From: Acetobacter farinalis
Lineage (GTDB): Bacteria > Pseudomonadota > Alphaproteobacteria > Acetobacterales > Acetobacteraceae
Direction: 5' to 3'
Length of the DNA stretch: 64,000 nucleotides
Assembly (NCBI RefSeq): GCF_011516935.1
Contig: NZ_WOTF01000003.1
Coordinates: forward strand, 1-64,000
The notes beneath the pieces are model-generated. The model saw only the letters and a program-made list of their open reading frames with translations. It was not told where the DNA came from and ran no database searches. A program made the translations under genes and the position numbers. Positions 664 to 32,239 of the stretch are shown in pieces. Every line of letters starts with the position of its first letter. Positions within the stretch are counted from its first letter, which is position 1.

Positions 664-1794
664 ATGCGCGTTCTTTTTCCTTACATCGCACAGCCGCACC
701 AAACCTTGCATTCCCTGCCGATTGCAATGGAAATTGCCAGCCGACACCCGGAGACGGAAGTCCATGTTGCCTGCGCCACACAGGCTCATCTGGAGTATGC
801 GCAATCCCTCGCGGCGTATTACCCGGAATCGAAAGCAAGCTTCGAGCTTCTGCACCTGCCAAACGTGATTCGTGAACGTGTGGAACGGCATGGGCACACC
901 GTTTTTTCCCGCCTTGCGAGCCTTTTTTTCAACAAGAAATATTTCTCTACGTTTCAGGCCATTGTCGTGCCCGAACGGACATCACTCTATTTAAGGACGC
1001 TTGGTGTCCGCCAGCCACGCCTGATCTGGACCCGCCATGGCGCGGGTGACCGTGCCATCGGGTTTGCGCGGGATGTCAAAAATTTTGACTATGTTCTTAT
1101 GGCCGGGAAAAAGGTCGAGCAGCGCCTTCTTGCGCAGGGCGCCATTCGCCCGGGCCATTACCATACGGGTGTGTATGCCAAGTTCGACATGGTTCGCAGG
1201 ATGCGGAACACCGGTGAACGCCTGTTCAACAACAACCGCCCGACCATTCTTTATAACCCGCACTTTAATGCGCGCCTCTCCTCCTGGCCGCAGATGGGGC
1301 TGAATATCCTCAGCCATTTTGCCAACCAGGACCGCTACAACCTGATTTTCGCGCCGCATTACCGTCTGTTTGACAACAGACGCGCGGAAGCGACGCAGCT
1401 CCAGCGGGCTTTTGGCGGCCACCCGCACATGATTATTGATACAGGCAGCGCCCGTAGCATCGACATGACCTACACCTCAGCCGCGGACCTGTATCTTGGC
1501 GACGCCAGTTCCCAGATTGCCGAGTTCCTGATTCATCCGCGCCCCTGCCTGTTCCTGAATGCGCACAAGGTCGCCTGGCAGGGGGATGAGAATTACCGCT
1601 TCTGGACCCTGGGGCCTGTGCTGGAACGCCTGGAAACCCTTGCTGAAGACGTCGATGCCGCATTTTCTTCACATGATGCTTTCGTAAATCTACAAAAAGA
1701 TTATATACGCGACACGTTCGATCTCACGGGGGACGAACCAACCGCGCCGGTAGGGGCCGACGCTATTGTTGATTTTCTTCGAATGGCCAGCTGA
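664..1794 (+). CDS. TagB/TagF-like CDP-glycerol glycerophosphotransferase family protein
   Basis: This 376-aa protein resembles the glycerophosphotransferase domain of TagB/TagF enzymes, which transfer glycerol-phosphate from CDP-glycerol. Supporting motifs are TRHG at about residues 123-126, FDYVLMAGKK at 141-150, NPHFNARLSSW at 198-208, FAPHYRLFD at 229-237 and DLYLGDASSQIAEF at 275-288, matching the family's C-terminal D-x-SS-x(3)-E-F type signature. ATG 664 was chosen because the recognisable fold begins there; the frame is open further upstream. The stop overlaps the next start by 1 nt. Being first in an operon with acyl-AMP ligase, ACP and serine palmitoyltransferase, it may add a phosphoglycerol-type head group to ceramide. 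That substrate is inference; family membership is fairly secure. Confidence 0.7.
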   Translation: MRVLFPYIAQPHQTLHSLPIAMEIASRHPETEVHVACATQAHLEYAQSLAAYYPESKASFELLHLPNVIRERVERHGHTVFSRLASLFFNKKYFSTFQAIVVPERTSLYLRTLGVRQPRLIWTRHGAGDRAIGFARDVKNFDYVLMAGKKVEQRLLAQGAIRPGHYHTGVYAKFDMVRRMRNTGERLFNNNRPTILYNPHFNARLSSWPQMGLNILSHFANQDRYNLIFAPHYRLFDNRRAEATQLQRAFGGHPHMIIDTGSARSIDMTYTSAADLYLGDASSQIAEFLIHPRPCLFLNAHKVAWQGDENYRFWTLGPVLERLETLAEDVDAAFSSHDAFVNLQKDYIRDTFDLTGDEPTAPVGADAIVDFLRMAS

Positions 1795-3569
1795 TGAACG
1801 TTTTGAATCCTGCTTCTTCACTTTCTGACGAAGAGACCCTGCAACCCGTTCCAGCTGCTTCCGGCCAGCCGCGCCGCTATGGCGATTTTGCGACATTCCC
1901 CGCAGCGCTGGATTATGCCGCACAGGGCGGAGCAGGTTTTAATATCTATTCCGGCAAAGGGGTTCTGCTTGAAGCCCTGCCGTATCGCGTCCTGCGCGAG
2001 CAGGCGATTGAAACCGGCCTGCGCATGCTGGGCATGGGACTTCAGCCGGGTGATCGCGTGGCGATTGTCGCGGAAAGCGATGGCGATTTTGCCCGCATTT
2101 TCTTCGGCTGCCAGTATGCCGGGCTGGTTGCGGCCCCCCTCCCCCTTCCCGTTGCCTTTGCCGGGAAAGAAACCTACCTGACCACTCTGCGCGGCATGAT
2201 TACCAGCGCAGGGGCCAGTGCCGTGGTTATCCCGCAGATCATTGAAGGCTGGACCGATGATATTGTCAGCGGCCTTGGCCTGACCTTTGCCGGTTCCCCC
2301 GCTGAACTGATGGCACGCCCCGTGCCGGATATGGCTCTGCCGGAAATCCGCCCGGAAGACCTGTCTTATCTTCAGTTTTCTTCGGGCAGCACCCGCTCCC
2401 CGATGGGTGTGTGCGTCAGCCAGCGCTCCGGCATGGCCAACGTGGCCGCCATTGCCCATGATGGGTTGTGTGTGCACGAAACCGGCGACCGCTGCGTTTC
2501 CTGGCTGCCGCTTTATCATGACATGGGGCTGGTCGGCTTCTTTCTGACCCCCATGACATGCCAGCTGACGGTTGACCTGCTCCCGACACGCGAATTCGCC
2601 CGCCGTCCGCATGTCTGGCTGGATCTGATCAGCCGTAACCGAGGCACCATCGCCTACAGCCCTTCCTTTGGCTATGAGCTGTGCGCGCGCCGCCCTGCCT
2701 CTGCCGGGCTGGATCTCTCTTGCTGGCGTGTGGCCGGCATTGGGGGCGACATGATCCGCCCGCATATCCTCAAAGAGTTCTCTGAACGGTTTGAACCTGC
2801 CGGCTTCAACCCCAAAGCCTTCGTCGCCAGCTATGGCATGGCGGAAGCAACGCTGGCCATCAGCTTTGTTCCCCTGAACAGCGGCATTGAAACTGATACG
2901 ATTGATCTGCCCGCTCTGGAACGCGACGGCGTTGCCCGCGCCGCGACAGACCCGGCCACGCCGACCAGAACATTCGTGATCTGCGGCAAGGTGCTGCCCG
3001 GCCATGACATGGAAGTTCGGAGCCCGGACGGAACCGTGCTGGCTGACCGGCAGATTGGCACCATTTTTGTGCGTGGCCCGAGCCTGATGGATGGCTACTT
3101 CCTCAAGCCTGCGGATACGGAGGAAGTGCTCGACCACAACAAATGGCTGAATACGGGTGACCTCGGCTACATGCTGAATGGTCAGATTGTGGTCACCGGT
3201 CGCGCCAAAGACCTGATTATCATCAACGGTCGCAACATCTGGCCGCAGGATCTGGAATGGTCCGCCGAGAGCCACATTCCCTCCCTGCGCAGCCGCGATG
3301 TGGCCGTGTTCTCGCTCGATCAGGGAGATCATGAAGAAATCGTCGCTCTGATCCAGTGCCGTGCGACAGCGCCGGACGCACGGGAAGCCCTGCGCGCAGA
3401 GGCAGCCAGCCTGTTCCGCCGCCTGCATGGTGTGGATGTTTCCGTCGTGCTGGTGGCCCCGCATGCCTTGCCGCAAACCTCTTCCGGCAAGCTGACACGC
3501 GCCAAAGCCCGCAAGATGTTCCAGTCCGGCATGTTTGAACCGCAGTCCGAAGCAGCCTCTGCCTGTTGA
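1794..3569 (+). CDS. Fatty acyl-AMP ligase / acyl-ACP synthetase of the sphingolipid operon
   Basis: A 591-aa ANL-superfamily adenylating enzyme. The nucleotide loop FSSGSTRSPMG lies at about 195-205, followed by SWLPLYHDMG, the YGMAE motif, TGDLGY and a C-terminal SSGKLTRAK lysine motif. The PLYHDMGL signature is typical of fatty acyl-AMP ligases, which activate a fatty acid and hand it to an ACP rather than to CoA. The start overlaps the upstream stop (TGATG), which indicates coupling. With the ACP 22 nt downstream and the serine palmitoyltransferase after it, it probably loads the acyl-ACP used for long-chain-base synthesis, as the acyl-ACP synthetase does in the Caulobacter sphingolipid locus. 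An AMP-ligase is more likely than a CoA-ligase. Confidence 0.85.
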   Translation: MNVLNPASSLSDEETLQPVPAASGQPRRYGDFATFPAALDYAAQGGAGFNIYSGKGVLLEALPYRVLREQAIETGLRMLGMGLQPGDRVAIVAESDGDFARIFFGCQYAGLVAAPLPLPVAFAGKETYLTTLRGMITSAGASAVVIPQIIEGWTDDIVSGLGLTFAGSPAELMARPVPDMALPEIRPEDLSYLQFSSGSTRSPMGVCVSQRSGMANVAAIAHDGLCVHETGDRCVSWLPLYHDMGLVGFFLTPMTCQLTVDLLPTREFARRPHVWLDLISRNRGTIAYSPSFGYELCARRPASAGLDLSCWRVAGIGGDMIRPHILKEFSERFEPAGFNPKAFVASYGMAEATLAISFVPLNSGIETDTIDLPALERDGVARAATDPATPTRTFVICGKVLPGHDMEVRSPDGTVLADRQIGTIFVRGPSLMDGYFLKPADTEEVLDHNKWLNTGDLGYMLNGQIVVTGRAKDLIIINGRNIWPQDLEWSAESHIPSLRSRDVAVFSLDQGDHEEIVALIQCRATAPDAREALRAEAASLFRRLHGVDVSVVLVAPHALPQTSSGKLTRAKARKMFQSGMFEPQSEAASAC

Positions 3570-3591
3570 GGCGGGAAAAAAGGAGTCCAAA

Positions 3592-3843
3592 ATGAGCGAA
3601 ACTGTTGAAAGCGTTTCTGCGCTGATCATCCAGAAGCTTCTCGCCAACCCGAAAGTGCCGCGTGATATCGACGGCAACTGCAAGATTATGGACGATCTGG
3701 CTTTTGACTCTCTGGCTGTCATGAATTTTGTCATGGAAGTGGAAGACTGCATGGATGTCTCCGTTCCGCTCGACAAGCTGGCCGATATCCGGACTATCAA
3801 TGATCTCGCAACCTGCGTTGTCGATCTAAAAAACAAAGGCTGA
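3592..3843 (+). CDS. Dedicated acyl carrier protein
   Basis: An 83-aa acyl carrier protein. The phosphopantetheine attachment serine is Ser40 in DLAFDSLAV, followed by the acidic helix EVEDCMDVSVP. The start was set at ATG 3592, which has AGGAG seven bases upstream; an upstream in-frame extension has no such site. It lies between the acyl-AMP ligase and serine palmitoyltransferase and probably carries the fatty acyl thioester condensed with serine. It is distinct from a housekeeping AcpP: the sequence is less acidic and the gene is not near fab genes. Confidence 0.9.
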   Translation: MSETVESVSALIIQKLLANPKVPRDIDGNCKIMDDLAFDSLAVMNFVMEVEDCMDVSVPLDKLADIRTINDLATCVVDLKNKG

Positions 3844-3849
3844 CCACGC

Positions 3850-5058
3850 ATGACGTCCCTGTTTTCCAAGTTTGACGGTATTGCAAGTTCACTCGGTGCC
3901 CTGATGGAAGCCGGTGGACGCAATCCGTTCTCTGTTGTGATCGAAAAGCCCCTCTCTTCCACGGTGGGTCTGATTGAAGGCCGCGAGACGCTGCTTTTCG
4001 GCACAAACAACTATCTGGGCCTCAGCCAGTCCCCCCGCGCCATCAAGGCGGCGCAGGACGCTGTTGCCGCCTGCGGCGTGGGCACCACCGGCTCCCGCAT
4101 TGCCAACGGCACGCAATCCCTCCACCGGCAGCTTGAAAGCCGGATTGCCAACTATTTTGGTCGGCGCGACGCAATGGTGTTCTCCACCGGGTATCAGGCC
4201 AATCTGGGCATGATTTCCACCCTGGCGGGGAAAGACGACTACCTGATTCTGGATGCCGACAGCCACGCCAGCATTTATGACGGTAGCCGCCTGAGCCCTG
4301 CACAGGTCATTCGCTTCCGGCATAATGATGCGGATGATCTGCACAAGCGCCTGAAACGTCTGGACGGCACGCCCGGAGCCAAGCTGATTGTTGTGGAAGG
4401 AATTTATTCCATGACCGGCAATGTGGCTCCCATTGCCGAGATGGCTGCGGTCAAACGCGAAACCGGTGCCTATCTGCTGGTTGACGAAGCCCATTCCTTC
4501 GGCGTGATGGGGGAAAAGGGCCTCGGTGTTGCTGAAGCCGCGGGTGTGGAAGCCGATGTCGATTTTGTTGTCGGCACGTTCTCCAAAAGCCTTGGTACGG
4601 TTGGTGGGTACTGTGTGTCCGACCATCCGGAGCTGGAATTTGTGCGGCTGAACTGCCGCCCTTACATGTTCACCGCCTCCCTGCCGCCGGAAGTGATTGC
4701 CGCAACCATGGCAGCGCTGGAAGACATGGCCGAGCACCCTGAACTGCGCACGCAGCTTATGGACAACGCCGCGCGCCTGCATGCCGGATTCCACCGTATC
4801 GGGCTGAACGCCAGCAAACAGGTAAGCCCGGTGATTGCCGTGACACTCGAAGAAATCGGGCAGGCCATTACAATGTGGAACCGCCTCCTGGATCTGGGCG
4901 TTTACGTCAACCTCAGCCTGCCGCCCGCAACGCCGGACTCTCGCCCGCTGCTGCGCTGCTCTGTGATGGCAACACACACCGCAGCCCAGATCGACAAGGC
5001 TATCGAGATCTTCCAGCAGGCGGCCCGTGACGCCAACGCTCTGCCGAGCGCTGCTTAA
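3850..5058 (+). CDS. spt: Serine palmitoyltransferase (alpha-oxoamine synthase)
   Basis: A 402-aa PLP-dependent alpha-oxoamine synthase that condenses serine with an acyl thioester to 3-ketosphinganine, the first committed step of sphingolipid synthesis. Visible residues are the PLP lysine K246 in TFSKSLGTVGG, the aspartate and histidine of DEAHSFG (212-218), and the stacking histidine H139 in DADSHASIYDG. KBL and BioF are in the same superfamily, but the operon partners (ACP and acyl-AMP ligase) point to serine palmitoyltransferase. The start lies 6 nt after the ACP stop. Its 3' end overlaps the convergent Tam41-like gene by 4 bp, sharing TTAA as both stops. No ceramide synthase or ketosphinganine reductase gene is in this window. 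Confidence 0.9.
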   Translation: MTSLFSKFDGIASSLGALMEAGGRNPFSVVIEKPLSSTVGLIEGRETLLFGTNNYLGLSQSPRAIKAAQDAVAACGVGTTGSRIANGTQSLHRQLESRIANYFGRRDAMVFSTGYQANLGMISTLAGKDDYLILDADSHASIYDGSRLSPAQVIRFRHNDADDLHKRLKRLDGTPGAKLIVVEGIYSMTGNVAPIAEMAAVKRETGAYLLVDEAHSFGVMGEKGLGVAEAAGVEADVDFVVGTFSKSLGTVGGYCVSDHPELEFVRLNCRPYMFTASLPPEVIAATMAALEDMAEHPELRTQLMDNAARLHAGFHRIGLNASKQVSPVIAVTLEEIGQAITMWNRLLDLGVYVNLSLPPATPDSRPLLRCSVMATHTAAQIDKAIEIFQQAARDANALPSAA

Positions 5059-6041
5059 GAGCGCCTGAAAGCCCCTTTGCGCCATAGCCACCAGACCAGC
5101 GGTGGCGCGGCCAGCAGAGGGTGCTTTTCTGCAAACGGTGTCAGAGGGACTTTTATCCCGCTATGGCGTTCGATTTTCCACGCGGCATAGCGGGCTCCCC
5201 CGGTAAATGTATAGGCTGCCTTTATCAGGCGCAGGATATTCAGCGGACGCCCTGACTGCCGCCGGACCTGCCATGCCTGCTCTGCCCGGGTTTTCTCCGC
5301 AGGGGTGATCAACGGGCGCACTTCGCCCCCCTCCGCCACGTAGGGCACGTCTGCCAGTTGCCAGCACGGCAGAAGCAAAGACTGATACCGTTCCTGATAG
5401 CTGGCGACGATCCCCGCACCCCGGCCCGCTTTTTCAACACGCAGTTCCGCCTGATAGGTCTGGCGGTAGAGCGCGTTCCAGAACGCATCGCACTCGCCTT
5501 TTTCGGGGCCAAGAAAGGCCGCCCAGCGGGCCGCCGTCAGGGTGGCACGCATGACGCACCGCCGCAGGGCATGCGCCGCCGCCGCATCACGCTGCCAGAC
5601 CAGCCGGACGGGTTGAGAAAAACGCGCCCAGACTGTGGTGTTCAGCGCGCTGAAGCGGGTCAGCCTGCGAAACTGGGCCAATGTCAGGATGGCAATCTTG
5701 GCCCGTAAGAGGCGGCCCCCGATGCTCAGTTCACGATATTCAACATTGGGGGGCAGAAGCGTATTGGCCAGACAGGCCAGCCTCCCCCGGGGCCAGTCGG
5801 ACTGGTTGTGAACAATGACGTAAAAATCCAGCAGGGTATCCGCGTGAATGCCGCTGCGCAGACCAGACCCGTAAAACAGCACCCCAAGCGGGGTGGCCTC
5901 GCCAAGCATCTGCTCGACAAAATCCACCACATGCCGGCTGACCGGCGTTGCCAGTTCCTGCCCGATCTGTTCATCCAGACACTGAAGAGCGCGGCCCTTC
6001 ATGCCAGAAGATGTATCCTTCAGGGGTGGCTGTTCTATCAT
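5055..6041 (-). CDS. Tam41/Mmp37-like nucleotidyltransferase (possible CDP-lipid synthase)
   Basis: This 328-aa protein has the pattern of the Tam41 (mitochondrial CDP-diacylglycerol synthase) nucleotidyltransferase fold: a YGSG loop at 57-60, the catalytic-type aspartate of LLDFYVIV at about 70-77, a tryptophan-containing stretch as in the family, and a later block with RAKIAILTLAQF that aligns with the Tam41 second segment. Tam41 makes CDP-diacylglycerol from phosphatidate and CTP. Start ATG 6041 lies one base after the upstream lipid kinase stop (TGACATG), so the two are coupled. By position, the product may activate ceramide-1-phosphate or phosphatidate with CTP. The fold is recognised from pattern only and the lipid substrate is inference. 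Confidence 0.6.
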   Translation of the reverse strand: MIEQPPLKDTSSGMKGRALQCLDEQIGQELATPVSRHVVDFVEQMLGEATPLGVLFYGSGLRSGIHADTLLDFYVIVHNQSDWPRGRLACLANTLLPPNVEYRELSIGGRLLRAKIAILTLAQFRRLTRFSALNTTVWARFSQPVRLVWQRDAAAAHALRRCVMRATLTAARWAAFLGPEKGECDAFWNALYRQTYQAELRVEKAGRGAGIVASYQERYQSLLLPCWQLADVPYVAEGGEVRPLITPAEKTRAEQAWQVRRQSGRPLNILRLIKAAYTFTGGARYAAWKIERHSGIKVPLTPFAEKHPLLAAPPLVWWLWRKGAFRRS

Positions 6042-6042
6042 G

Positions 6043-7074
6043 TCATGCCTGCAGGAAAGAGATAACGGGCCCGGCAGAGAGTTCCAGACTGTGTTCAGGT
6101 CCGGTTTCCAGAATCTCACCGTCCAGCACAAAAGATTGTTTTGTTTTCAGCAGGATGCGCCGCACAGACGCACTTGTGTAAGCAGGATTGTCCCGCAGCC
6201 ATGCAGGAGTGCGCCCGCGCAGCAGGTTCCAGAGAGCACGCAGCAGTTTTGGCGGGTGTGCCGCCACATCCAGATAGCTGATCCCTTCATCCTTCTGTGC
6301 GCTCTCGCGCCAGAACGGCCAGACGCCATATGGCAGGCGGTGCAACGCCGTGCACAGAAAGAGAAAACGGCTCCGCTCCACTGGCGCGGCCTCATCCAGC
6401 GCCAGCGCCACAGGAGTGCCTTCCACCCATTTCTGCCGCAGGCGCGGGGTGATGATCTGGCGCAATGTTTCCGCCAGCGTGATCAGCACAGCCGTATCAT
6501 GCGCGTAATTTTTCAGGATGGCTGGCTGATGGGCAATTTCAATGCCCCGGGTAAACGCCCCCAACCCGCCAAAAAAACCAAGGACAGGAGCCCGATTCAA
6601 GCCCGGCCAGGACACAACCAGCGGCTGCCGTTTTTTGACGCCTGACTGCAAATCCCCCGACCGGCACCGGTTCTGAAGGCAGTGCAGGGCCTCTGCCCCG
6701 CGCAGGCCGAAGCCGACATCGGCAGCAATCAGATTAGTATTGCCTGACGGCAGAACCGCAATCACGGGCAGTTTGTCTTTGGGGTAAGAGGAGGCATACA
6801 CGGCGCTCAGCACATTCCCGACCGTGCCATCCCCCCCATCCACCACCAGGCACTCAACCTGCTGCCGGGCCAGACTCTCCACCGCCTCATACAGTTCCTC
6901 CTGCGAGGTGGGCGAAAAAAACATCGGCCCCAGCATGCTCCGTGCGCACTCCAGGTAACGACGATCCGCTTCGATATTGCGCCGACTGCGGGAATTGTGG
7001 ATCAAGGCAAAACGATCGGACACTCGGAAACTCTTGTTTTTGCAGATACGGCGCCAGCGCTTTTGCCCCGGCAT
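6043..7074 (-). CDS. Diacylglycerol/ceramide-kinase family lipid kinase
   Basis: A 343-aa protein with the DAGK catalytic domain signature GGDGT (80-84) and LPSGNTNL at 108-115, the ATP-binding and nucleotide-specificity motifs of lipid kinases. The C-terminal half holds a second beta-sandwich domain ending in VLDGEILE, as in YegS and DgkB. It phosphorylates a lipid hydroxyl with ATP. A DAGK-type ceramide kinase is known in the Caulobacter sphingolipid locus, and this gene sits next to serine palmitoyltransferase, so ceramide is the likeliest substrate. Diacylglycerol or a long-chain base remains possible. It is coupled to the Tam41-like gene downstream. Its 5' end overlaps a rightward promoter. 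Confidence 0.8.
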   Translation of the reverse strand: MPGQKRWRRICKNKSFRVSDRFALIHNSRSRRNIEADRRYLECARSMLGPMFFSPTSQEELYEAVESLARQQVECLVVDGGDGTVGNVLSAVYASSYPKDKLPVIAVLPSGNTNLIAADVGFGLRGAEALHCLQNRCRSGDLQSGVKKRQPLVVSWPGLNRAPVLGFFGGLGAFTRGIEIAHQPAILKNYAHDTAVLITLAETLRQIITPRLRQKWVEGTPVALALDEAAPVERSRFLFLCTALHRLPYGVWPFWRESAQKDEGISYLDVAAHPPKLLRALWNLLRGRTPAWLRDNPAYTSASVRRILLKTKQSFVLDGEILETGPEHSLELSAGPVISFLQA

Positions 7075-7090
7075 ATGGCGGTGGTATAAT
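7063..7090 (+). promoter_or_regulatory. Candidate promoter for the phosphoesterase-lptFG-hydroxylase operon
   Basis: A perfect TATAAT at 7085-7090 is preceded by TTGCCC (7063-7068) with a 16-nt spacer. Transcription would start near 7097, about 55 nt before the TTG start at 7152. It lies across the 5' end of the divergent lipid-kinase gene. Confidence 0.55.
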
Positions 7091-7151
7091 TAGACTCACA
7101 GCACTTGTCACATATTGTCCTTGCAGGCCCCTGTGCCGGAGATCTTCCTTC

Positions 7152-8051
7152 TTGTCTTTTTTTCAAATCGCACATCTCTCCGACCCCCACCTGCCGCTGG
7201 CAGAACTGCCCGCTCCGGACGAAATTCGCTTCAAGCGCCTCCTCAGCCTGCTGTCCTGGACACTGAAACGCCGCCATCTGCATAAGGCCGCGCCTCTGGC
7301 ACGCGTGATGGACGATATCAGGCAGGCTCACCCCGAACTGATTGCCCTGACGGGAGATCTGACCAACCTTGGCCTGCGTTCCGAGTTCCGGCGCGCCCGG
7401 CAGTGGCTGGAAGAGCAGAGTCTGCCCCCGACCCTGCTGGTGCCGGGGAACCATGATGCGCTGATCCGGGAGAATGCCTCGGGCAAGGCGGCCCTCTGGG
7501 CTGAGTGGCTGAAAACGGGCACAACCTTTCCCTCTTTGTTGGTCAAAGACCATATTGCCCTGATTGGCGTGAACTCAGCCGTGCCAACCGCCCCGTTTTT
7601 TGCTTCTGGCAGGATCGGGGCTGCGCAAGCGGAGCGCCTGCGCGCCCTTCTTGCCAGAACGGGGCGGGCCGGACTGTGCAGGGTTGTGCTGATCCACCAT
7701 CCACCTGTGGAAAATCTGGTCAGCCGCCGCAAGGGACTGGAGGATTTCCGGCTGTTCCAGACCATCCTGCGCGAAGCCGGAGCCGAGCTGGTGCTGCATG
7801 GCCACTCGCACCGCGCAACGCATACCTGCATCCCCGATACGGATATTCCGGTTGTCGGCACGACCTCCGCCTCTCATAGTGCGGGCAACCCGGCTACCGC
7901 AGCGGGGTGGAATGCCATTGCAGTCCATCCGCAGGCCGGACACTGGTCAATCACCGTTCTGCGGCGGGAACTTGGAGCCGATGGCATGATGCGGGATGGT
8001 TTGATACGAAATTTCACACCTCATCGCCTTTCCCGTTCAATCCCGCTATGA
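7152..8051 (+). CDS. Calcineurin-like metallophosphoesterase
   Basis: A 299-aa cytoplasmic metallophosphoesterase with all five metal motifs: D-x-H (D11, H13), GDL (D69), GNHD (100-102), IHHPP (181-185) and HGHSH (216-220). TTG 7152 is the only start near the conserved N-terminus; it has GGAG ten bases upstream and a TATAAT promoter further up. The family includes LpxH-like UDP-sugar-lipid hydrolases and many phosphodiesterases. As first gene of an operon with LptF/LptG-like permeases and a lipid hydroxylase, it may hydrolyse a lipid phosphate or pyrophosphate intermediate. The substrate cannot be read from sequence. Confidence 0.75.
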   Translation: MSFFQIAHLSDPHLPLAELPAPDEIRFKRLLSLLSWTLKRRHLHKAAPLARVMDDIRQAHPELIALTGDLTNLGLRSEFRRARQWLEEQSLPPTLLVPGNHDALIRENASGKAALWAEWLKTGTTFPSLLVKDHIALIGVNSAVPTAPFFASGRIGAAQAERLRALLARTGRAGLCRVVLIHHPPVENLVSRRKGLEDFRLFQTILREAGAELVLHGHSHRATHTCIPDTDIPVVGTTSASHSAGNPATAAGWNAIAVHPQAGHWSITVLRRELGADGMMRDGLIRNFTPHRLSRSIPL

Positions 8052-8058
8052 CAGCCCC

Positions 8059-9264
8059 ATGCTGAATCACCCCCTGCTGCACCGCGTGAAAGCGTTTTTC
8101 ACTCCAGGCACTCTGGACCGCTATCTGATTGCGCAGCTTGTTCCCCCCTTCATGGTCGCACTTTCTGTGGTGATGATCGCCCTGCTGCTGGAACGGCTGC
8201 TGGTGCTTTTCAATCTGCTGGCCGCAGGCAACAACCATCTCGGCATTTTTGTTGAGCTGCTGACCACCCTTCTGCCTCATTATCTGGGGCTGGCCATACC
8301 GGCCGCGCTGTGTGTAAGCGTTTTTTCCATTATCCGGCGCATGAGCCAGAATGAAGAGATTGATGCCATCACGAGTAGCGGCATCTCTCTGGTGCGTATC
8401 ACCCGCCCCTATATCCTGCTTGGGGGCGTGCTGAGCTTTATTGCCTTCCTGCTGTACGGGTTTGTTCAGCCGCATGCCCGATATGATTTCCGTGCGACCT
8501 TCTACACAGCCAGCCACACCGGGTGGGCACCGCGGCTGCAATCCAACATGTTTGCAAGCCCCTCCCCCACGCTCACCATTGTGGCAGACCACGTTACACA
8601 GGGCGGGTCAGACCTGCAGGGCGTGTTTATCCGCGATACCTCGGACCATCAGGAGCGCGATATTACTGCCCGGCACGGCCATATCCGCCTGGCCTCTGAC
8701 AATTCCGCCGTGGAAATTGATCTGGAAAACGGCACAATTCTGACTGATCCCGGCAAGGGCCTCCCTACCCTCACCACGTTTGAGCACGCAACGCGCCTGC
8801 TGACACGGGCAAACCATATTGCCCCGTTCCGTGAACGCGGAGAGGATGAACGGGAGCTGACCTCCCCGGAGCTGGTCAGCCGGCTTCTGCATCAGGACCC
8901 GTCCATCTCCCGCCCGCATATGCGCTCGGAAGTGCATTTTCGTCTGGCCCGCAGCCTGACCATTCCCTTCATTCCCGCCCTGGCTGCGGCTCTGGCCATC
9001 ATGCGCAAACGCCAGCGGAGCAGTGCCGGGCTGGTGCTGGCCTTTATTGTCATGGTGGGGTTTGATCACATGCTCCAGTTCGGGCACAGCATGGTCGCTA
9101 CCAAGAAGGCCTCGCTTCTGATGATCTGGGGCCCGGCCCTTGTGTTTGTCACTGGCAGCTCCCTGTTGCTGCTTTATAAGTCCGGCACGTTCCAGACTCT
9201 GAAGGCCCGGTGGGGCGGCGCGCGGCGCATCGAAAAGAAAAACAACCAGAAGGCCCTGCCTTGA
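8059..9264 (+). CDS. LptF-like permease
   Basis: A 401-aa YjgP/YjgQ family protein. The N-terminal block DRYLIAQLVPPF leads into membrane helices, then a periplasmic beta-jellyroll-like middle from about residue 140 to 290, then three C-terminal helices beginning near RSLTIPFIPALAAALA. LptF and LptG form the inner-membrane permease that lifts lipopolysaccharide from the membrane with ATPase LptB. It is followed directly by an LptG-like gene. This may be the only lptFG pair of the cell or a second pair serving sphingolipid. Its position inside the sphingolipid locus favours the second, but a whole-genome count is needed. Confidence 0.8.
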   Translation: MLNHPLLHRVKAFFTPGTLDRYLIAQLVPPFMVALSVVMIALLLERLLVLFNLLAAGNNHLGIFVELLTTLLPHYLGLAIPAALCVSVFSIIRRMSQNEEIDAITSSGISLVRITRPYILLGGVLSFIAFLLYGFVQPHARYDFRATFYTASHTGWAPRLQSNMFASPSPTLTIVADHVTQGGSDLQGVFIRDTSDHQERDITARHGHIRLASDNSAVEIDLENGTILTDPGKGLPTLTTFEHATRLLTRANHIAPFRERGEDERELTSPELVSRLLHQDPSISRPHMRSEVHFRLARSLTIPFIPALAAALAIMRKRQRSSAGLVLAFIVMVGFDHMLQFGHSMVATKKASLLMIWGPALVFVTGSSLLLLYKSGTFQTLKARWGGARRIEKKNNQKALP

Positions 9265-10355
9265 AAACGCAGCCTCCCGCCCCGACCCATGTTCTGCTGC
9301 GCTACCTGTCTGGCGTGCTGTTCAACCGTGTGATGTTCAGTTCCGCCATTCTGGTCGGGCTGATGGAAATTCTGGCCCTTCTGGAACAGACCACCCCCAT
9401 TCTCCAGCGGCATCTGGGGGTGGCCGGTATCCTGACCTATGCGGGCATGCGGCTGCCGTTTCTGATGTCTGGAGCCCTGCCCCTTGGCGTGCTGATTGGC
9501 GCGCTGCTGATGCTGACGCAAATGACGCTCGCCAGCGAGATGGCCATCCTGCAGGCCTCCGGCCTGTCCATGTGGGGGCTCTACAAGCGGCTTGTTCCGG
9601 CCACCCTGCTGGTTGGCGCGCTGGGGATTGTTCTGGATGATCAGGTCACACCCCGATCCGAGCAGGCTCTGGCGGCCTGGTGGAACCGTACGGACCCACA
9701 CCCGGAGGACGGCCACGCCTTCTGGTTTCATGAAGGCGGGCGACTCGCGCATGTGCGGTATGTGGCGGATGGCGGCAACATGCTCGCGCACCTTGACCTC
9801 TACACCCGTACTCCTGAAGGCCTGCTTCAGGAAACACTCCATGCCGAACGCGCGGACTATACCCATGCCCACGGCTGGCAGCTTCATGCCATTACCCGCG
9901 TTCAGATAGACCAGCAGAAAGCCCAGAGGCTCCCCGCAGAGGACAGCATGCCCTGGCAGACCACCCTGCACCCGTGGGATTTCATCAGGCTTTCCGCCGA
10001 AAACCCTCCGCTTTCTTCCGGCACCATTATCGGGATGCTCCGTGGGCGGTTGCCTTCGGATTCCAGTTCGGGATTTCTGCAGGCCGGCCTGCTGGAACGC
10101 TTCCTCCGCCCCGCGGCCATGATGGTGCTGCTGTTGCTTGCCATGCCGGTAATCTATATCCCCCCCAGAACAGGCACACGTAGCTGGGTTCCGGTCTGGT
10201 GCCTTGGGGCCGGGCTACTTTTCATTATTGCGCAAGGGCTGTTACGGGCCATGGGAAATGCAGGACTTCTGCCCCCGCCCGTTGCAACCATTCCCGGGTT
10301 GATTATCTTCACGCTCGGGGCAGTCACTGCGCTCCTGAGGAACGAAGCAAAATGA
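9261..10355 (+). CDS. LptG-like permease
   Basis: A 364-aa YjgP/YjgQ family partner of the LptF-like protein. It begins with LLRYLSGVLFNRVMFSS, has helices to about residue 115, a periplasmic beta domain (FWFHEGGRLAHVRYV onwards) and three C-terminal helices. TTG 9261 was chosen because it overlaps the lptF stop (TTGA), has AGAAGG seven bases upstream, and matches the family N-terminus; the frame runs further upstream without family similarity. It would form the heterodimer channel with the product of the previous gene. The next gene overlaps it by 4 nt. Confidence 0.8.
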   Translation: MKTQPPAPTHVLLRYLSGVLFNRVMFSSAILVGLMEILALLEQTTPILQRHLGVAGILTYAGMRLPFLMSGALPLGVLIGALLMLTQMTLASEMAILQASGLSMWGLYKRLVPATLLVGALGIVLDDQVTPRSEQALAAWWNRTDPHPEDGHAFWFHEGGRLAHVRYVADGGNMLAHLDLYTRTPEGLLQETLHAERADYTHAHGWQLHAITRVQIDQQKAQRLPAEDSMPWQTTLHPWDFIRLSAENPPLSSGTIIGMLRGRLPSDSSSGFLQAGLLERFLRPAAMMVLLLLAMPVIYIPPRTGTRSWVPVWCLGAGLLFIIAQGLLRAMGNAGLLPPPVATIPGLIIFTLGAVTALLRNEAK

Positions 10356-11128
10356 GCGGCACTCTGAATAACGCAACCCTACGGACAGGCCGGAGTTTCG
10401 ATCTGGGCAAGATGAACCTCCGGCAGTTGTGGGTTGCCTATCTGACCTACCCGACCATCCTGCTGTATTTTGTGCTGATTATCGCCAGCGTTGCAGCCTC
10501 GGTCCTTGCCTTTGCGGGGTGGGGCCCCACGCTTGTTGCGATTGTGGCGGTCATTCTGGTCTATCCGCTGGCGTGGTACCTGCTGCATCGTTACGTTCTG
10601 CACGGGCGCATGCTGTACAAGATGAAATGGACGTCCTCCCTGTGGAAGCGCATCCATTTTGACCATCATCAGGACCCACATCTGCTGGATGTTCTGTTTG
10701 GCTCCCCCCTCACCACGGTGCCGACCATCGGCTGCATTACCGGGCCCATCGGCTATCTGATCGGGGGCTGGGGCGCGGCCGCCACGGCATTTGGCACGGG
10801 TCTGGTCATTACCTGCATCTATGAATTCTTCCACTGCATCCAGCACCTGAACTACAAGCCTCGTTCCGCATGGATCCAGCGCATGAAAGCGCGGCACGTC
10901 CTGCACCATTTTCATGATGAAGACGGCAACTTCGGCATTACCAGCTTTGTGGTGGACCGCCTGTTCGGCAGTTACTATGTGGACGCCAAAGCCCGCCCCC
11001 GCAGCCCTACCGTGTTCAATCTGGGGTATGACATCAAGGAAGCCGGGCGCTTCCCCTGGGTCATGCGTCTGACAGGCTCCCCCCCGCGTGACCGGCCCGA
11101 TGGCGCACGCCCGGACGCCAGATCATGA
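10352..11128 (+). CDS. Fatty-acid/ceramide hydroxylase (sterol desaturase superfamily)
   Basis: A 258-aa integral membrane di-iron hydroxylase. Histidine clusters are HRYVLH (79-84), HFDHH (102-106), HCIQH (161-165) and RHVLHH (181-186), between hydrophobic segments at about 28-60 and 62-78 and others. This pattern is that of fatty-acid 2-hydroxylases (the Scs7/FA2H catalytic domain), here without the cytochrome b5 domain of the yeast enzyme. The start overlaps the lptG stop (ATGA). Within a sphingolipid locus it probably hydroxylates the ceramide N-acyl chain or the long-chain base. Acetobacter species are reported to make 2-hydroxypalmitoyl dihydroceramide, which fits. The exact carbon hydroxylated is inference. 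Confidence 0.8.
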   Translation: MSGTLNNATLRTGRSFDLGKMNLRQLWVAYLTYPTILLYFVLIIASVAASVLAFAGWGPTLVAIVAVILVYPLAWYLLHRYVLHGRMLYKMKWTSSLWKRIHFDHHQDPHLLDVLFGSPLTTVPTIGCITGPIGYLIGGWGAAATAFGTGLVITCIYEFFHCIQHLNYKPRSAWIQRMKARHVLHHFHDEDGNFGITSFVVDRLFGSYYVDAKARPRSPTVFNLGYDIKEAGRFPWVMRLTGSPPRDRPDGARPDARS

Positions 11129-11156
11129 TGCGCGCTCATCACACCAGACACCCGGT

Positions 11157-11945
11157 ATGAGCACGCCGCGCGGAGCACTTTCCGCACTGGTTCTGGCCGG
11201 GACACGCCCCGGCACGCCAGACCCGATGGCACAGGCTTATGGCGTGTCCCACAAGGCCATTCTGCCCGTAGCGGGCGTCCCCATGATCCTGCGCGTAATT
11301 CAGGCTCTGCGGGCCACGCCGGAAATCGGACGGATTGCTGTCTGTATTGATGCCCCCGCCGTTCTGGAGGGTCTCCTCCCCACGGATATCGAGATCATCC
11401 CCGCCAGCCCGAACGGCCCCAGCGCCAGCGTGCTGGCCGGGCTGGAGCGGATGGGAACTCCCTTGCTGGTCACCACTGCTGACAATGCCCTGCTGCGCTC
11501 GGCCTGGATCAGTGAGTTTCTGGCCCGATGCAGCCCGCAGAGTGACGTGGCCGCCGCCGTTGCGCCGGAGGCCGTGGTCCTGCGGGACGTTCCCGGCACG
11601 AAGCGCACTTTTGTCAGGCTGGCCGATATGGCGTTTTCCGGCTGTAACCTGTTCCTGTTCCGCACGCCCGCGGCTTTGCAGGTTGCCGCCCTGTGGCAGC
11701 GCGTGGAAAAAAACCGCAAGCACCCGTTGCGCATTGCCTGGCTGCTTGGCCCCGGCATTCTGCTGCGGGCACTGTGCAAGAAGCTGACCCGCGCCGCCTT
11801 GTGCGCGCGGATTGGGGCCCTGAGTGGCACAACGGCCGAACTGGTGCCGCTTTCAGATGGTCGGGCTGCGGTGGACGTGGATAAGCCGGCCGATCTGGAA
11901 CTGACGGAAAAGCTGATTGCCGCTGAAGCCGCAGCGAAACCCTGA
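11157..11945 (+). CDS. MobA-like NTP transferase domain protein
   Basis: A 262-aa nucleotidyltransferase of the GT-A/MobA-like fold. The N-terminal LVLAGTRPGTPD loop is followed by HKAILPVAGVPMILRV, and a metal-type TADNALL stands near residue 105. These match enzymes that transfer NMP to a phosphorylated small molecule. ATG 11157 was chosen because the family begins just before LSALVLAG; starts at 11088 (GTG) and 11100 (ATG) are also possible and would overlap the hydroxylase. In context it could make a CDP- or NDP-activated head-group donor for the neighbouring transferases. The substrate is unknown. Confidence 0.65.
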   Translation: MSTPRGALSALVLAGTRPGTPDPMAQAYGVSHKAILPVAGVPMILRVIQALRATPEIGRIAVCIDAPAVLEGLLPTDIEIIPASPNGPSASVLAGLERMGTPLLVTTADNALLRSAWISEFLARCSPQSDVAAAVAPEAVVLRDVPGTKRTFVRLADMAFSGCNLFLFRTPAALQVAALWQRVEKNRKHPLRIAWLLGPGILLRALCKKLTRAALCARIGALSGTTAELVPLSDGRAAVDVDKPADLELTEKLIAAEAAAKP

Positions 11946-11951
11946 GCCACC

Positions 11952-13037
11952 ATGCGCATTGCCTATCTTATCAATTCGACCGAAGGGGGCGGTGCGGCGT
12001 TTCCTGTACCGGCCATTACCGGTGTGTTTCGCAATGCCGGGCATGAGGTGGCCGTTTTCGCCCTGACGCGGCGCGATGGCCGGGCCATCAAGCCCATGCA
12101 GGATGCCGGGCTTGATGTCCGGATTCGTGATGGCGGCCGAAAAGATCATCTCGCCGCCCTGTTCTGGCTGAAGCAGCAGATGGACGCCTGGCGCCCCACC
12201 CATATCTGGACCTCCCTGACGCGCGCGACACTGCTCGGGCAGATTATCGGCCAGATGCGGGGTGTGCCTGTGGCAAGCTGGCAGCATTCCGCCCGGCTCC
12301 GCCCGCCCAACGGCACCCTGCTGCGTCTGCGGCGAAACGCCTCCTGCCTCTGGCTGGGCGATTCCCGATACGTGACGGACATCACGCGCCAGCAACTCCA
12401 CATTCCCTCTGAGCGCCTGCTGTGCTGGCCGATTTTTCACGCGCGCCCCACAGCCCTTCAGTCCCGCCCCTGGATGCGGGGGGAACCTGTGCGCCTTGGT
12501 TCTCTGGGGCGGCTGCATCCGGTGAAAGGGTTTGACACGCTCTGTCTGGCCCTCGCCCGGCTCAGACAGGCAGAGGCGCTCCCCCCTTTTCATCTGACCC
12601 TTGCGGGAGAAGGTGAGGAACGCCCGGCACTGGAAGCCCTCATCCGTGAAAACGGGCTGAGCGAACAGATTTCCTTGCCCGGCTTCTGCGAGAGGACGGA
12701 GCAGTTTCTGGCCGACCAGCATCTTTATCTGCAACCGTCCCACTGGGAAGGGTTCTGCATGGGCGCGCATGAGGCCATGCAGGCGGGTTTACCCGTTATT
12801 GCCTCCGCCGTTGGAGAACTGACGCATTCCATCCGGAATGGCGTAACCGGCTGGACCGTCCCGCCGAAGGACCCTGATGCACTGGCCCAAGCTCTGGCAA
12901 CCGCCCTGAGCCAGCCGGAGCAGCTCGCACCCATGGGGCAGGCTGGCCGGAACTATGTCCTGACCCAGTTCAGCGAACAGGCCTTTACCCGTGCGGGTGA
13001 AGCCGCCCTGCAGAAATTTGCCTCCCTCACACCCTGA
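11952..13037 (+). CDS. GT4-family glycosyltransferase
   Basis: A 361-aa GT-B glycosyltransferase. The N-terminal domain starts MRIAYLINSTEGGGA; the C-terminal nucleotide-sugar domain has LGSLGRLHPVKGFDTL near 180 and SHWEGFCMGAHEAMQAGLPVIAS near 262-284, the E-x7-E motif of family GT4. No signal peptide. It starts 6 nt after the NTP-transferase stop. As last gene of the operon it is a candidate to glycosylate the sphingolipid head group, but a role in lipopolysaccharide cannot be excluded. It converges on gph with a 12-bp gap and no clear terminator. Confidence 0.75.
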   Translation: MRIAYLINSTEGGGAAFPVPAITGVFRNAGHEVAVFALTRRDGRAIKPMQDAGLDVRIRDGGRKDHLAALFWLKQQMDAWRPTHIWTSLTRATLLGQIIGQMRGVPVASWQHSARLRPPNGTLLRLRRNASCLWLGDSRYVTDITRQQLHIPSERLLCWPIFHARPTALQSRPWMRGEPVRLGSLGRLHPVKGFDTLCLALARLRQAEALPPFHLTLAGEGEERPALEALIRENGLSEQISLPGFCERTEQFLADQHLYLQPSHWEGFCMGAHEAMQAGLPVIASAVGELTHSIRNGVTGWTVPPKDPDALAQALATALSQPEQLAPMGQAGRNYVLTQFSEQAFTRAGEAALQKFASLTP

Positions 13038-27715: not shown

Positions 27716-28466
27716 CGTCAGCCCCGTGTTGTGCCAGCAGGATATCTCCTGTTGCGATCGTTTTCATTCCATCTTCCGTCTCAAGCAGAAGCCGGCCATC
27801 AGCGGCAAGCCCTGCAAACTGGCCCTTTTCATAAGTAGTCCCGCCGCTTACGACAAGGGGCGTGCCAACAGGATGCGCCCGTTTGCGCCATTCTGCACAT
27901 AAAGCGGCAAACCCTTCACGGTTCCAGACATCACACCAGTTCGTCAGATGTGCAAGAATGGCCCGCGCCACATCGGCGGAAGACGGCACGGGACCGTAAT
28001 CCCCCAGCGCGCCCGCTTTCCGGCCAATCTGCGCCTCCTGCGGGGGCTGTGCAAGGTTGGCCCCCATGCCGATGACCAGCATGGTCCCTTCCCGCTCGAT
28101 CAGAATACCCGCCAGCTTCTGTCCATCAAGCAGAATATCATTGGGCCATTTGATCATCAGATGCTTACGGGCGGCAGGAACGCTCTCTGCCAGCCCTTCA
28201 AAAAACGCCAGAGAGGCCACGAAGGGCCATCCGCCCAGCGCGTCCGCCCCTGCTTGCCCTGCATCCAGCAGAACGGAAAACGCCAGGCTCTGCCCGGCAT
28301 TCGCCCAAGCCCGCCCCCGACTGCCTCGCCCCTTTGTCTGGTGGTGTGCAAGCAGCGCCAGACCCGGAGCCTCTCCGGCCCGGGCACGCTCAAGGCAGAT
28401 ATCAGAGGTTGATGTCAGTTCCTCATAACATTCCAGCCGCCAGGCGGCCGCCTCCGGCTGCGTCAT
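27699..28466 (-). CDS. birA: Biotin--[acetyl-CoA-carboxylase] ligase
   Basis: A 255-aa biotin protein ligase. The biotin-AMP loop is [12 protein letters not shown] near 45-56 and [19 protein letters not shown] follows near 110-128. It attaches biotin to the carboxyl carrier of acetyl-CoA carboxylase. It lacks the N-terminal helix-turn-helix of E. coli BirA, so it is a ligase only and not a repressor. ATG 28466 overlaps the nuoN stop (ATGA). Confidence 0.93.
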
Positions 28467-29905
28467 CCGCCAAGAGCCAGAGCAGCCTGCCGGGCCAGAG
28501 CCATCAGCGGGCCAAGAGCCAGAACAAAGAACACGGTTGCCAGCCCCATGCTGCCCGAAACAAACACAAGGCTGCGTGCTGGCTGGTCCAGCCTCTCAGC
28601 AGAGGCATCAAAATACATAACCTTCACCACCCGCAGATAATAATACGCACCAATCACACTCGAGAGTGCCCCGATCCCGACCAGCACGTAAAGACCGGAT
28701 TGCCATGCGGCGGCAAAAACCATCAGTTTGCCGAAAAAACCAGCCAGCGGCGGCGCGCCAACCATGCTGAACATGAACACCGCCAGCGCCGCCGCCAGAC
28801 CGGGGTCTGTCCGCCCCAGCCCGGACAGATCGGCAAGGGATGTCACCTCCCGCCCTTTGCGCCGCATGGCGGTGATCACGGCGAACACCCCGGCGTTCAT
28901 AACGAGATAGGCCGCCAGATACACCAGCGTGGCCCGCACGCCATTGGTGGACGCCGCAGCCAGACCCATCAGCGCATACCCCATGTGACCAATGGAGGAA
29001 TAGGCCATCAGGCGCTTGATATTGGTCTGCGGAATGGCCGCGAGCGCGCCGTAAACCATGGAGAGGATGGACAGCGTTTCAATCAGGATCTGCCAGCGGG
29101 GGGCCATGGCCCCGAACGGACCGCTCATCACCCGCAGCAGCAGCGCAAAAGTTGCGAATTTGGGAGCACCCGCCATATAGGCTGTCACAGGGGTCGGGGC
29201 ACCCTGATACACATCCGGCGTCCACATATGGAACGGCACGACGGAAAGCTTGAAGCACAGCCCCACAACAAGAAACACAAGGCCGACCATCAGCCCCACA
29301 GGCAGCGCTGTGGTCTGCTGAATGGCCGCAATCAGCCCGCTGTACTCCATGGTTCCGGCGTAACCATACACCAGAGACATGCCATACAGCAGCAGGCCGG
29401 ACGCCAGAGACCCCAGCACGAAGTATTTCAGCCCGGCTTCGGAGGAGAGCACGTCATCCCGTTCCAGAGCAGCCAGAATGTAGATGGAGAGTGAGGATAG
29501 CTCCAACCCGACAAACAACGTCATCAGATTGGCTGAAGAGGCCATGATCATGGCCCCCACTGTTGAAAACAGGATCAGCACCGCTGTTTCAAAAGGCAGG
29601 GGCGCACGCTCGTCCGTGCGGTAGCTGACTGTCAGCAGCAGAGCAACCAGCCCGCCCAGCAGAACCAGAATTTTCATGAACCGGGCGAAGCTGTCATTCA
29701 CGAACGTGCCCGCGTAGGCTGCACCATCCGGCGAGAGGGCCACCAGCACCGCGCACCCCACAAAGGCCGCGATGCTCAGAACGGTGCAGGCCCCAATTCC
29801 CTTCCCCGGCCGCTGAAGCACACCAAACACAAGGATAACCAGCCCTGCCAGGGCAAGCGTGATTTCCGGCAGAGCCAGTATCCAGTTGACTGACATCGCG
29901 TTCAT
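28463..29905 (-). CDS. nuoN: NADH-quinone oxidoreductase subunit N
   Basis: A 480-aa antiporter-like membrane subunit of complex I with about 14 helices. The GLELSSLSIYILAALERDD segment and FKLSVVPFHMWTPDVYQGAP are specific for NuoN, not NuoM. GGAG stands nine bases before ATG 29905. Its start overlaps, as ATGA, the stop of an 18-codon ORF that occupies the nuoM position. It probably carries one of the proton channels of the membrane arm. Confidence 0.95.
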   Translation of the reverse strand: MNAMSVNWILALPEITLALAGLVILVFGVLQRPGKGIGACTVLSIAAFVGCAVLVALSPDGAAYAGTFVNDSFARFMKILVLLGGLVALLLTVSYRTDERAPLPFETAVLILFSTVGAMIMASSANLMTLFVGLELSSLSIYILAALERDDVLSSEAGLKYFVLGSLASGLLLYGMSLVYGYAGTMEYSGLIAAIQQTTALPVGLMVGLVFLVVGLCFKLSVVPFHMWTPDVYQGAPTPVTAYMAGAPKFATFALLLRVMSGPFGAMAPRWQILIETLSILSMVYGALAAIPQTNIKRLMAYSSIGHMGYALMGLAAASTNGVRATLVYLAAYLVMNAGVFAVITAMRRKGREVTSLADLSGLGRTDPGLAAALAVFMFSMVGAPPLAGFFGKLMVFAAAWQSGLYVLVGIGALSSVIGAYYYLRVVKVMYFDASAERLDQPARSLVFVSGSMGLATVFFVLALGPLMALARQAALALGG

Positions 29906-29958
29906 TGCACGGCACTCCGTTCAGAGCGGAAGGAAACTGAAAAAACAGTGTGACTCAT
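29902..29958 (-). pseudogene. 18-codon ORF in the nuoM slot, possible nuoM deletion remnant
   Basis: Between nuoL and nuoN, where nuoM of about 1.5 kb is expected, there are only 61 bp. They hold an ORF encoding MSHTVFSVSFRSERSAVQ. Its ATG (29956-29958) has GAGG six bases upstream, formed partly by the nuoL stop, and its TGA overlaps the nuoN start as ATGA. These are exactly the gene-boundary signals of this operon, so the ORF looks like the two ends of nuoM joined by an in-frame deletion. It contains no recognisable NuoM residues, so this remains inference. Confidence 0.45.
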
Positions 29959-29966
29959 CTGCCGCC

Positions 29967-31919: not shown

Positions 31920-32239
31920 CCCTTCATCATCGTGACGTCTTCGACCTGGATCGACCCACGGTTACGGAAATACACCGTGACAATCGCCAGCCCGATGGCG
32001 GCTTCCGCCGCGGCAATGGTGAGCACAAACAGCACCATCACCTGCCCGGAAAGATCCGCATGCGCGGAAGAAAACGCCACAAAATTCAGGTTTGCGGCCA
32101 GCAGGATAAGTTCCATGGACATGAGAATGATGATGATATTTTTCCGGTTGAGAAAAATACCCAGCACTCCCAGCACCAGAAGGGCCGCACTCACCACCAG
32201 ATAAGAGCCCAACCCGATAGGGGCGATTGCCGGTGTCAT
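31916..32239 (-). CDS. nuoK: NADH-quinone oxidoreductase subunit K
   Basis: A 107-aa membrane subunit with three helices. The conserved helix [12 protein letters not shown] follows [11 protein letters not shown], carrying the two functional glutamates of NuoK (one in MSMELIL, one in [12 protein letters not shown]). It starts in a 4-nt overlap with nuoJ and ends in a 4-nt overlap with nuoL. Confidence 0.96.

Follow-up and report, generated by a model that had tools for sequence, protein, structure and literature searches.

A twelve-gene sphingolipid locus in Acetobacter farinalis

Which lipid is made by a sphingolipid locus of the Caulobacter type that lacks the enzymes needed to complete the known head group? 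The question is raised by a stretch of 64,000 nucleotides of Acetobacter farinalis contig NZ_WOTF01000003.1 (the window), in which twelve genes at positions 664-13037 encode a serine palmitoyltransferase (SPT) together with putative head-group, hydroxylation, and export proteins. We consider it likely that the twelve genes represent, in Acetobacteraceae, the phosphosphingolipid locus of the Caulobacter type, and that they make an outer-membrane phosphoceramide that is hydroxylated on its N-acyl chain and whose head group the enzymes for the Caulobacter lipid ceramide diphosphoglycerate (CPG2) do not complete. Judged from its genes, the product would probably be related to known CPG2, not identical with it.

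All twelve open reading frames (ORFs) are present and intact:

664..1794, + strand: TagF-like GT-B transferase, 376 aa; counterpart by position of Caulobacter CC_1167
1794..3569, + strand: aasR-type fatty acyl-AMP/ACP ligase, 591 aa; NF006624, 875.6 bits (cut-off 600)
3592..3843, + strand: acpR-type acyl carrier protein, 83 aa; Pfam PP-binding, E 4e-8; DSL serine motif present
3850..5058, + strand: spt, SPT, 402 aa; NF047599, 630.1 bits (cut-off 500)
5055..6041, - strand: cpgC-like Tam41-fold nucleotidyltransferase, 328 aa; candidate CDP-ceramide synthase
6043..7074, - strand: cpgB-like lipid (putative ceramide) kinase, 343 aa; DAGK_cat, E 5.6e-12; GGDGT motif
7152..8051, + strand: CC_1158-like metallophosphoesterase; Metallophos, E 2.6e-12; start uncertain, TTG at 7152 chosen
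8059..9264, + strand: lptF2-like permease, 401 aa; LptF_LptG, E 5.6e-55
9261..10355, + strand: lptG2-like permease, 364 aa; LptF_LptG, E 2.2e-50; start TTG at 9261 uncertain
10352..11128, + strand: fah, FA2H/Scs7-like putative ceramide fatty-acyl hydroxylase, 258 aa; FA_hydroxylase, E 2.6e-20, 73.6 bits (cut-off 31)
11157..11945, + strand: ntp, CC_1153-like MobA/CofC-type nucleotidyltransferase, 262 aa; NTP_transf_3, E 1.3e-14
11952..13037, + strand: gt4, GT4 glycosyltransferase, 361 aa, a variable member; Glycos_transf_1, E 1.5e-34

The matches to PP-binding, DAGK_cat, Metallophos, LptF_LptG (twice), FA_hydroxylase, NTP_transf_3, and Glycos_transf_1 each exceeded the curated Pfam cut-off. Orientation and junctions suggest three transcription units: tagF-aasR-acpR-spt forward (664-5058), the kinase and CpgC-like genes reverse (5055-7074), and phosphoesterase-lptF2-lptG2-fah-ntp-gt4 forward (about 7152-13037). 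Within each unit, neighboring genes overlap or stand at most about 30 bases apart. The first-pass annotation, made from the DNA letters, had named the same twelve genes at these coordinates, and its list was borne out, most members having family support; its labels TagF-like and Tam41-like found weak sequence support, the latter being backed by the modeled fold and the former remaining less clear.

Comparison with the Caulobacter CPG2 locus

In Caulobacter, the region CC_1168-CC_1152 is described as holding LptC2, a flippase, aasR, cerR, acpR, spt, CpgC, CpgB, CpgA, a phosphoesterase, LptF2, LptG2, cerS, and two nucleotidyltransferases (PMC11324152, PMC12275187, PMC13228409). The window shares the AasR-AcpR-SPT core, the CpgB kinase and CpgC beside spt, and, as compared with Caulobacteraceae genomes, a CC_1158-type phosphoesterase, LptF2, LptG2, a CC_1153-type ntp, and a TagF-like gene in matching order and orientation. 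In high-GC relatives, where genes were called by codon-scored prediction, the order in Caulobacteraceae and Oleisolibacter was aasR-cerR-acpR-spt, then CpgC-CpgB-CpgA reversed, then phosphoesterase-HIT-lptF2-lptG2-cerS-ntp, with CpgD nearby where the stretch reached that far; Oleisolibacter has a hydroxylase gene before cerS, within which its stretch stops. Three Methylopila loci (L066, L067, L070) gave no cerR or phosphoesterase match and otherwise kept the same order. The window order equals this outgroup order minus cerR, CpgA, HIT, cerS, and CpgD. Proteins at the same place were recognizably alike: the CpgC-like protein was 41-48% identical to its Caulobacteraceae and Methylopila homologues, the kinase 29-38% to those of Caulobacteraceae, Methylopila, and Oleisolibacter, the phosphoesterase 38-43% to those of Caulobacteraceae and Oleisolibacter, and ntp 42-56% to the protein following cerS in Caulobacteraceae and Methylopila.

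The first-pass annotation had placed its interest in the joint presence of these modules; this is no novelty, since nearly the whole set has been published for Caulobacter (PMC11324152). What it had overlooked is that the locus is without genes for ceramide synthase (cerS), ketoreductase (cerR), CpgA (CC_1159), CpgD (CC_1152), and LptC2; the HIT gene is missing as well. In addition, the window differs from the Caulobacter locus by an FA2H-like hydroxylase gene between lptG2 and ntp and, in some species, by a GT4 gene, whereas N-acyl hydroxylation in Caulobacter is ascribed to a DesA-family gene elsewhere (PMC11324152). The same core operon, aasR-acpR-spt, is described in the acetic acid bacterium Gluconobacter oxydans (GOX2058-GOX2056), where the other two ceramide genes, GOX1849 and GOX2417, are also placed elsewhere (PMC9386255); section 13 of that paper covers these five ceramide genes only and no head-group, hydroxylase, or transport genes.

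Two reassignments of window proteins to missing functions were rejected. The MobA-like ntp was considered as CpgD; in outgroups the two types lie close together, only the CC_1153-type is found in the window, and position matches ntp to CC_1153. The TagF-like protein was considered as CpgA; the protein at the CpgA position is a CDP-alcohol phosphotransferase (PF01066), and TagF-like proteins and CpgA coexist in outgroups. A second CC_1153-type nucleotidyltransferase, 35-41% identical, was observed off the sphingolipid-locus contig in two Methylopila and two Caulobacteraceae genomes (L112, L113, L096, L105).

Conservation in Acetobacteraceae

When species genomes were scanned with SPT, 235 relatives were found and the 80 best retained (62 Acetobacteraceae by title); among these 80, the closest were Acetobacter species, at 90-94% for the first ten. 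With a required coverage of at least 70%, spt was counted in all 62 Acetobacteraceae loci, acpR in 61, aasR in 60, the CpgC-like gene and ntp in 57 each, the kinase, lptF2, lptG2, and fah in 56 each, the phosphoesterase in 55, tagF in 42, and gt4 in 20; a CC_1166-type polysaccharide flippase gene lay upstream in 10. The block did not come together by chance, as many named species have its genes in the same order. Synteny with spt across the family was the check that the first-pass annotation had asked for, loss of it being named as the refuting outcome; with most genes in 55-57 of the 62 loci, no such loss was seen. Its single sphingolipid pathway is supported for the kinase, the Tam41-like gene, the phosphoesterase, the LptF/G-like pair, the hydroxylase, and the NTP transferase, and the TagF-like gene probably belongs to it as well; gt4 (20 of 62) is the weakest and only loosely linked member.

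In five loci (L020, L021, L025, L027, L042), no block gene after spt was found within the stretch covered. About 1.5 kb or more separates spt from the CpgC-like gene in six Acetobacter loci (L022, L023, L024, L026, L028, L062), and in L022 this spacer includes a predicted 409-aa reverse-strand frame.

Genome-wide searches for the missing genes

Genome G017 supplied the queries for CpgA, CpgD, and CerS, and genome G029 that for CerR; the two belong to the six outgroups, which were searched together with seven acetic acid bacteria including A. farinalis. CpgA was found in none of the seven and in all six outgroups, one being the query source. For CpgD, a phosphoglycerate cytidylyltransferase, the seven acetic acid bacteria gave only weak matches (A. 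farinalis E 7.6e-5, best E 6e-13), and all six outgroups, again including the query source, matched at E 1.7e-81 or better. A CerS relative was present in 13 of 13 genomes; the A. farinalis copy is 36% identical and lies on another contig (G000:C1:722928-724034), and a Methylopila genome (G002) holds both a cluster cerS and a distant copy of the same sort. CerR cluster copies (48-100% identity) occurred in five of six outgroups, while A. farinalis, the six other acetic acid bacteria, and Methylopila gave matches of 31-36% only. Since matches of this grade (29-34%) also accompany true CerR in outgroup genomes, none in A. farinalis can be assigned as the ketoreductase; GOX1849 has been named as the CerR homologue in Gluconobacter (PMC9386255).

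The wider distribution was surveyed in 385 Alphaproteobacteria genomes, which are not independent samples. CpgC was detected in 42 (E 1e-10) and CpgA in 23 (E 1e-15 or better), all of them CpgC-positive. The 19 CpgC-positive genomes from which CpgA is absent include all five Acetobacteraceae of the sample.

Proposed pathway and candidate head-group enzymes

By family and by analogy with Caulobacter work, AasR would load a fatty acid on AcpR and SPT would condense the acyl group with serine. Keto reduction and N-acylation would be carried out by proteins encoded elsewhere in the genome, the distant CerS relative being a candidate, and the FA2H/Scs7-like enzyme may hydroxylate the ceramide N-acyl chain. 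The kinase is expected to give ceramide-1-phosphate, which the Tam41-fold CpgC, using CTP, would turn into CDP-ceramide, a precursor of a head group such as that of CPG (one phosphoglycerate); here fold and Caulobacter genetics are the guides. Because CpgA and CpgD are missing, the head group would not be extended to CPG2 by the known route. This leaves the CC_1153-like ntp, the phosphoesterase, the TagF-like protein and, in some species, GT4 as candidates for synthesis and transfer of the final head group. LptF2 and LptG2 may move the lipid in the direction of the outer membrane with the help of the one LptC detected, which would also serve lipopolysaccharide (LPS) export.

The CpgC-like protein had no Pfam or NCBIfam match. 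Its AlphaFold2 model (pLDDT 92.9) had as its five best PDB fold matches only Tam41 CDP-diacylglycerol synthases, including 7ecd (E 8e-9, TM 0.51/0.60) and 6ig4, with aminoglycoside nucleotidyltransferases next at E 2e-4. The modeled fold thus resembles that of Tam41, whereas identity is 11-15% and the expected substrate would be ceramide-1-phosphate, not phosphatidic acid. Activation of ceramide-1-phosphate has already been suggested for CC_1161 (PMC11324152, section 13).

In the TagF-like protein, Glyphos_transf scored below the Pfam cut-off (15.4 bits vs 22.1, E 0.009). The top PDB fold match of its model (pLDDT 88.5) was the CDP-glycerol glycerophosphotransferase TagF (3l7k, E 7e-11), to which it is 12-14% identical, and UDP-GlcNAc 2-epimerases fitted nearly as well. 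These fold comparisons were preferred to profile searches of the PDB, in which the alignments of TagF-like and CpgC proteins produced only implausible matches (best E 0.0019 and 0.64, respectively). A TagF-like gene followed LptC2 in all three Caulobacteraceae loci examined beside LptC2 (L160, L161, L175), with the flippase gene and then aasR downstream in two of them; it directly precedes aasR in L110 (from G029, the third LptC2-bearing genome) and in L061. This neighborhood places the window gene at the CC_1167 position. CC_1167 has been called probably unrelated to the pathway, yet its cofitness is 0.57 with spt and 0.54 with CC_1159 (PMC11324152). TagF-like proteins were detected in 12 of the 385 genomes (E 1e-10), ten of which are CpgC-positive and seven also CpgA-positive; the three with CpgC and without CpgA are all Acetobacteraceae. 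In two Acetobacteraceae genomes of this survey, part of the stretch beside the locus was masked, and tagF was not scored as lost.

After nine of the 62 loci had been dropped as partial, cut, or masked (L011, L020, L021, L025, L027, L029, L042, L053, L057), 53 were assessable for tagF and gt4: 19 held both, 19 tagF only, none gt4 only, and 15 neither (Fisher p 3e-4, kinship ignored and losses clustered by kinship). The association refers to the locus itself, with no search elsewhere in the genomes, and is only suggestive. Against the PDB, GT4 matched only general GT4 enzymes.

In L015-L019, from several Acetobacter species, a short tagF remnant (11-16% of its length) stands beside aasR as a decayed gene. 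In the Acetobacteraceae locus L254 (G404), two tandem TagF-like genes adjoin a flippase gene and a block with ntp, fah, LptF/G, phosphoesterase, kinase, and CpgC; the SPT-like gene of L254 is only 33% identical to that of the window. In another Acetobacteraceae genome (L277, G326), a TagF-like gene adjoins two GT4-like genes; its contig also carries the CpgC-like gene, at a distance of about 0.9 Mb.

Identity of the head group

Our most specific proposal is a tentative one: the product may be an undescribed outer-membrane phosphoceramide, in which a 2-hydroxyacyl ceramide is converted to CDP-ceramide by the Tam41-fold enzyme and finished without CpgA and CpgD by a TagF-like polyol-phosphate transferase fed by the CC_1153-type ntp, with GT4 glycosylation in some species; the TagF-like protein (CC_1167) would then be an overlooked pathway member across Alphaproteobacteria.

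Alternatively, the locus might make only CPG on a hydroxylated ceramide, with ntp and the phosphoesterase serving CPG formation and TagF and GT4 being accessory or belonging to another surface polymer. In Caulobacter, CPG was found to require two head-group genes, those for CpgB and CpgC; CPG without CPG2 has been predicted for Zymomonas, likewise without CC_1159 (PMC11324152); and the 19 CpgC-positive genomes without CpgA fit the same picture. However, CC_1153 is needed in Caulobacter for CPG2 rather than CPG, so its retention in 57 of 62 loci would need another reason. We regard CPG alone as a serious minority possibility.

Ordinary CPG2 appears unlikely. It would require that the TagF-like and CC_1153-like proteins took over the tasks of CpgA and CpgD by non-orthologous replacement, a view favored by the chemistry, as TagF uses CDP-glycerol and CpgD makes CDP-glycerate (PMC12275187), and by the three CpgA-less genomes among the ten with TagF-like and CpgC proteins. 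Both proteins coexist with CpgA and CpgD in outgroups, seven of the 12 TagF-positive genomes having CpgA, which argues that they are not simple substitutes; moreover, 15 of the 53 assessable loci have lost tagF from its place and kept the remainder.

The hydroxylase and its probable partner gene

In a profile search of the PDB, the sole match of the hydroxylase was Scs7 (4zr1, E 1.2e-9). Ten histidines (H79, H84, H102, H105, H106, H161, H165, H182, H185, H186) are invariant in 24 sequences and align with histidines of Scs7 that we take to be its metal ligands. The window protein thus resembles the FA2H/Scs7 2-hydroxylases in catalytic domain and aligned histidines and differs from them in being alphaproteobacterial and in having no cytochrome b5 domain found by Pfam search.

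In the class survey, the hydroxylase was detected in 39 genomes (E 1e-20), 34 of them CpgC-positive; eight of the 42 CpgC genomes are without it. Two of the other five hydroxylase matches are weak (E about 2e-21), and three (L286, L287, L288) have other sphingolipid genes beside the hydroxylase. We compared 22 neighborhoods, from 20 of the 39 genomes plus the named loci L061 and L077. In 18, cerS lies directly downstream in the same orientation, the match ends being 0-141 bases apart; these are all the non-Acetobacteraceae neighborhoods. The four exceptions are the Acetobacteraceae stretches L254-L257 (L257 being probably the same locus as L057, one of the 62), and in one of these a CerS relative lies on the opposite strand, at a distance of about 8 kb. 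The hydroxylase appears to have long been paired with ceramide synthase and to have stayed in the Acetobacteraceae locus after cerS was lost.

Hydroxylation of the sphingoid base instead of the N-acyl chain (Sur2-like C4 hydroxylation to phytosphinganine) would fit the broad family, as Sur2-type enzymes belong to the same di-metal family and the PDB comparison cannot separate them from the Scs7 type; the alignment of all ten histidines with Scs7 and the adjacency to cerS, an N-acyltransferase gene, make it improbable. Action on the N-acyl chain is retained here as the preferred assignment. In Acetobacter malorum, the ceramide acyl chain is 2-hydroxypalmitate. This species is on record as a ceramide producer (PMC10626005). 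The P450-type alpha-hydroxylase of Sphingomonas is unrelated to the window enzyme, and FA2H homologues of myxobacteria have been linked to sphingolipids (Ring 2009, cited in PMC10002949, which also treats the P450 enzyme). Among the titles and abstract openings searched, with incomplete literature coverage, no report of an alphaproteobacterial FA2H-type ceramide hydroxylase was found.

Putative export

Both permeases scored below the NCBIfam equivalog cut-offs of canonical LptF and LptG (185.4 of 230 bits for lptF2 and 187.3 of 240 bits for lptG2), and a separate LptF/LptG pair is encoded on contig C1 of the same genome. The window LptF2 is 34-39% identical to the cluster LptF2 of Caulobacteraceae, vs 22% at best within the region of its own canonical pair. 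Unlike the Caulobacter LptB2FGC-type exporter with LptC2, no dedicated second LptC was detected: the A. farinalis genome gave one LptC match only, and three of four Caulobacteraceae gave two. That TagF, GT4, and LptF2/LptG2 serve LPS or capsule and merely happen to adjoin spt is very improbable; these families are mostly known from surface polymers and gt4 is patchy, yet the separate LptF/LptG pair, the nearness of LptF2 to cluster homologues, and a gene order kept across families all speak against it.

Strength of the interpretation and significance

Several points weigh against an Acetobacteraceae phosphoceramide that differs from CPG2 in its head group. The lipid is a prediction from the gene set. 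Caulobacter genetics place CC_1153 and CC_1158 in the step from CPG to CPG2 (PMC11324152, PMC12275187); both types are kept here without CpgA and CpgD, and CPG2 could still come from other proteins. The CC numbers were assigned by position in Caulobacteraceae genomes, not from the C. crescentus record itself, and the outgroup locus is patchy, with a CC_1153-type gene in only seven of 60 sampled Caulobacteraceae genomes. The A. farinalis genome yielded no clear ortholog of CerR (best match E 2.5e-20, residues 2-190 of 307). As for single members, tagF and gt4 have been lost from the locus in part of the Acetobacteraceae, and G017, with one LptC match, showed no TagF-like gene in the 1 kb upstream of its flippase gene. 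Since the hydroxylase family may be sparsely represented in the PDB, a match to Scs7 only tells little about which position is hydroxylated.

Three points appear most useful. CpgA and CpgD are naturally absent here, with enzymes of the CC_1153 and CC_1158 types retained, which separates steps that Caulobacter genetics could not; the hydroxylase, paired with ceramide synthase, is a directly testable candidate for a ceramide acyl-hydroxylase of bacteria; and the TagF-like gene in the position of CC_1167, overlooked so far, can be counted among the candidates for the pathway. Anionic sphingolipids support survival of Caulobacter without LPS (PMC12275187) and have been linked with polymyxin sensitivity (PMC11324152). 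The head-group chemistry is also of practical interest, because acetic acid bacteria belong to the food organisms and ceramide-containing strains have been trialled for skin hydration, according to a title in the reference list of PMC8268314.

Genomic surroundings

The window starts at the contig start, and many Acetobacter contigs likewise end just upstream of the sphingolipid locus. Upstream of aasR in Commensalibacter melissae (L057) there are rRNA genes on the reverse strand, so the sphingolipid locus probably sits beside a divergent rRNA operon. The contig ends were considered as a feature of the pathway and rejected, as they fit the operon seen in L057. Farther downstream, at 28001-32000, AT skew reaches 0.25-0.28, the maximum of the window.

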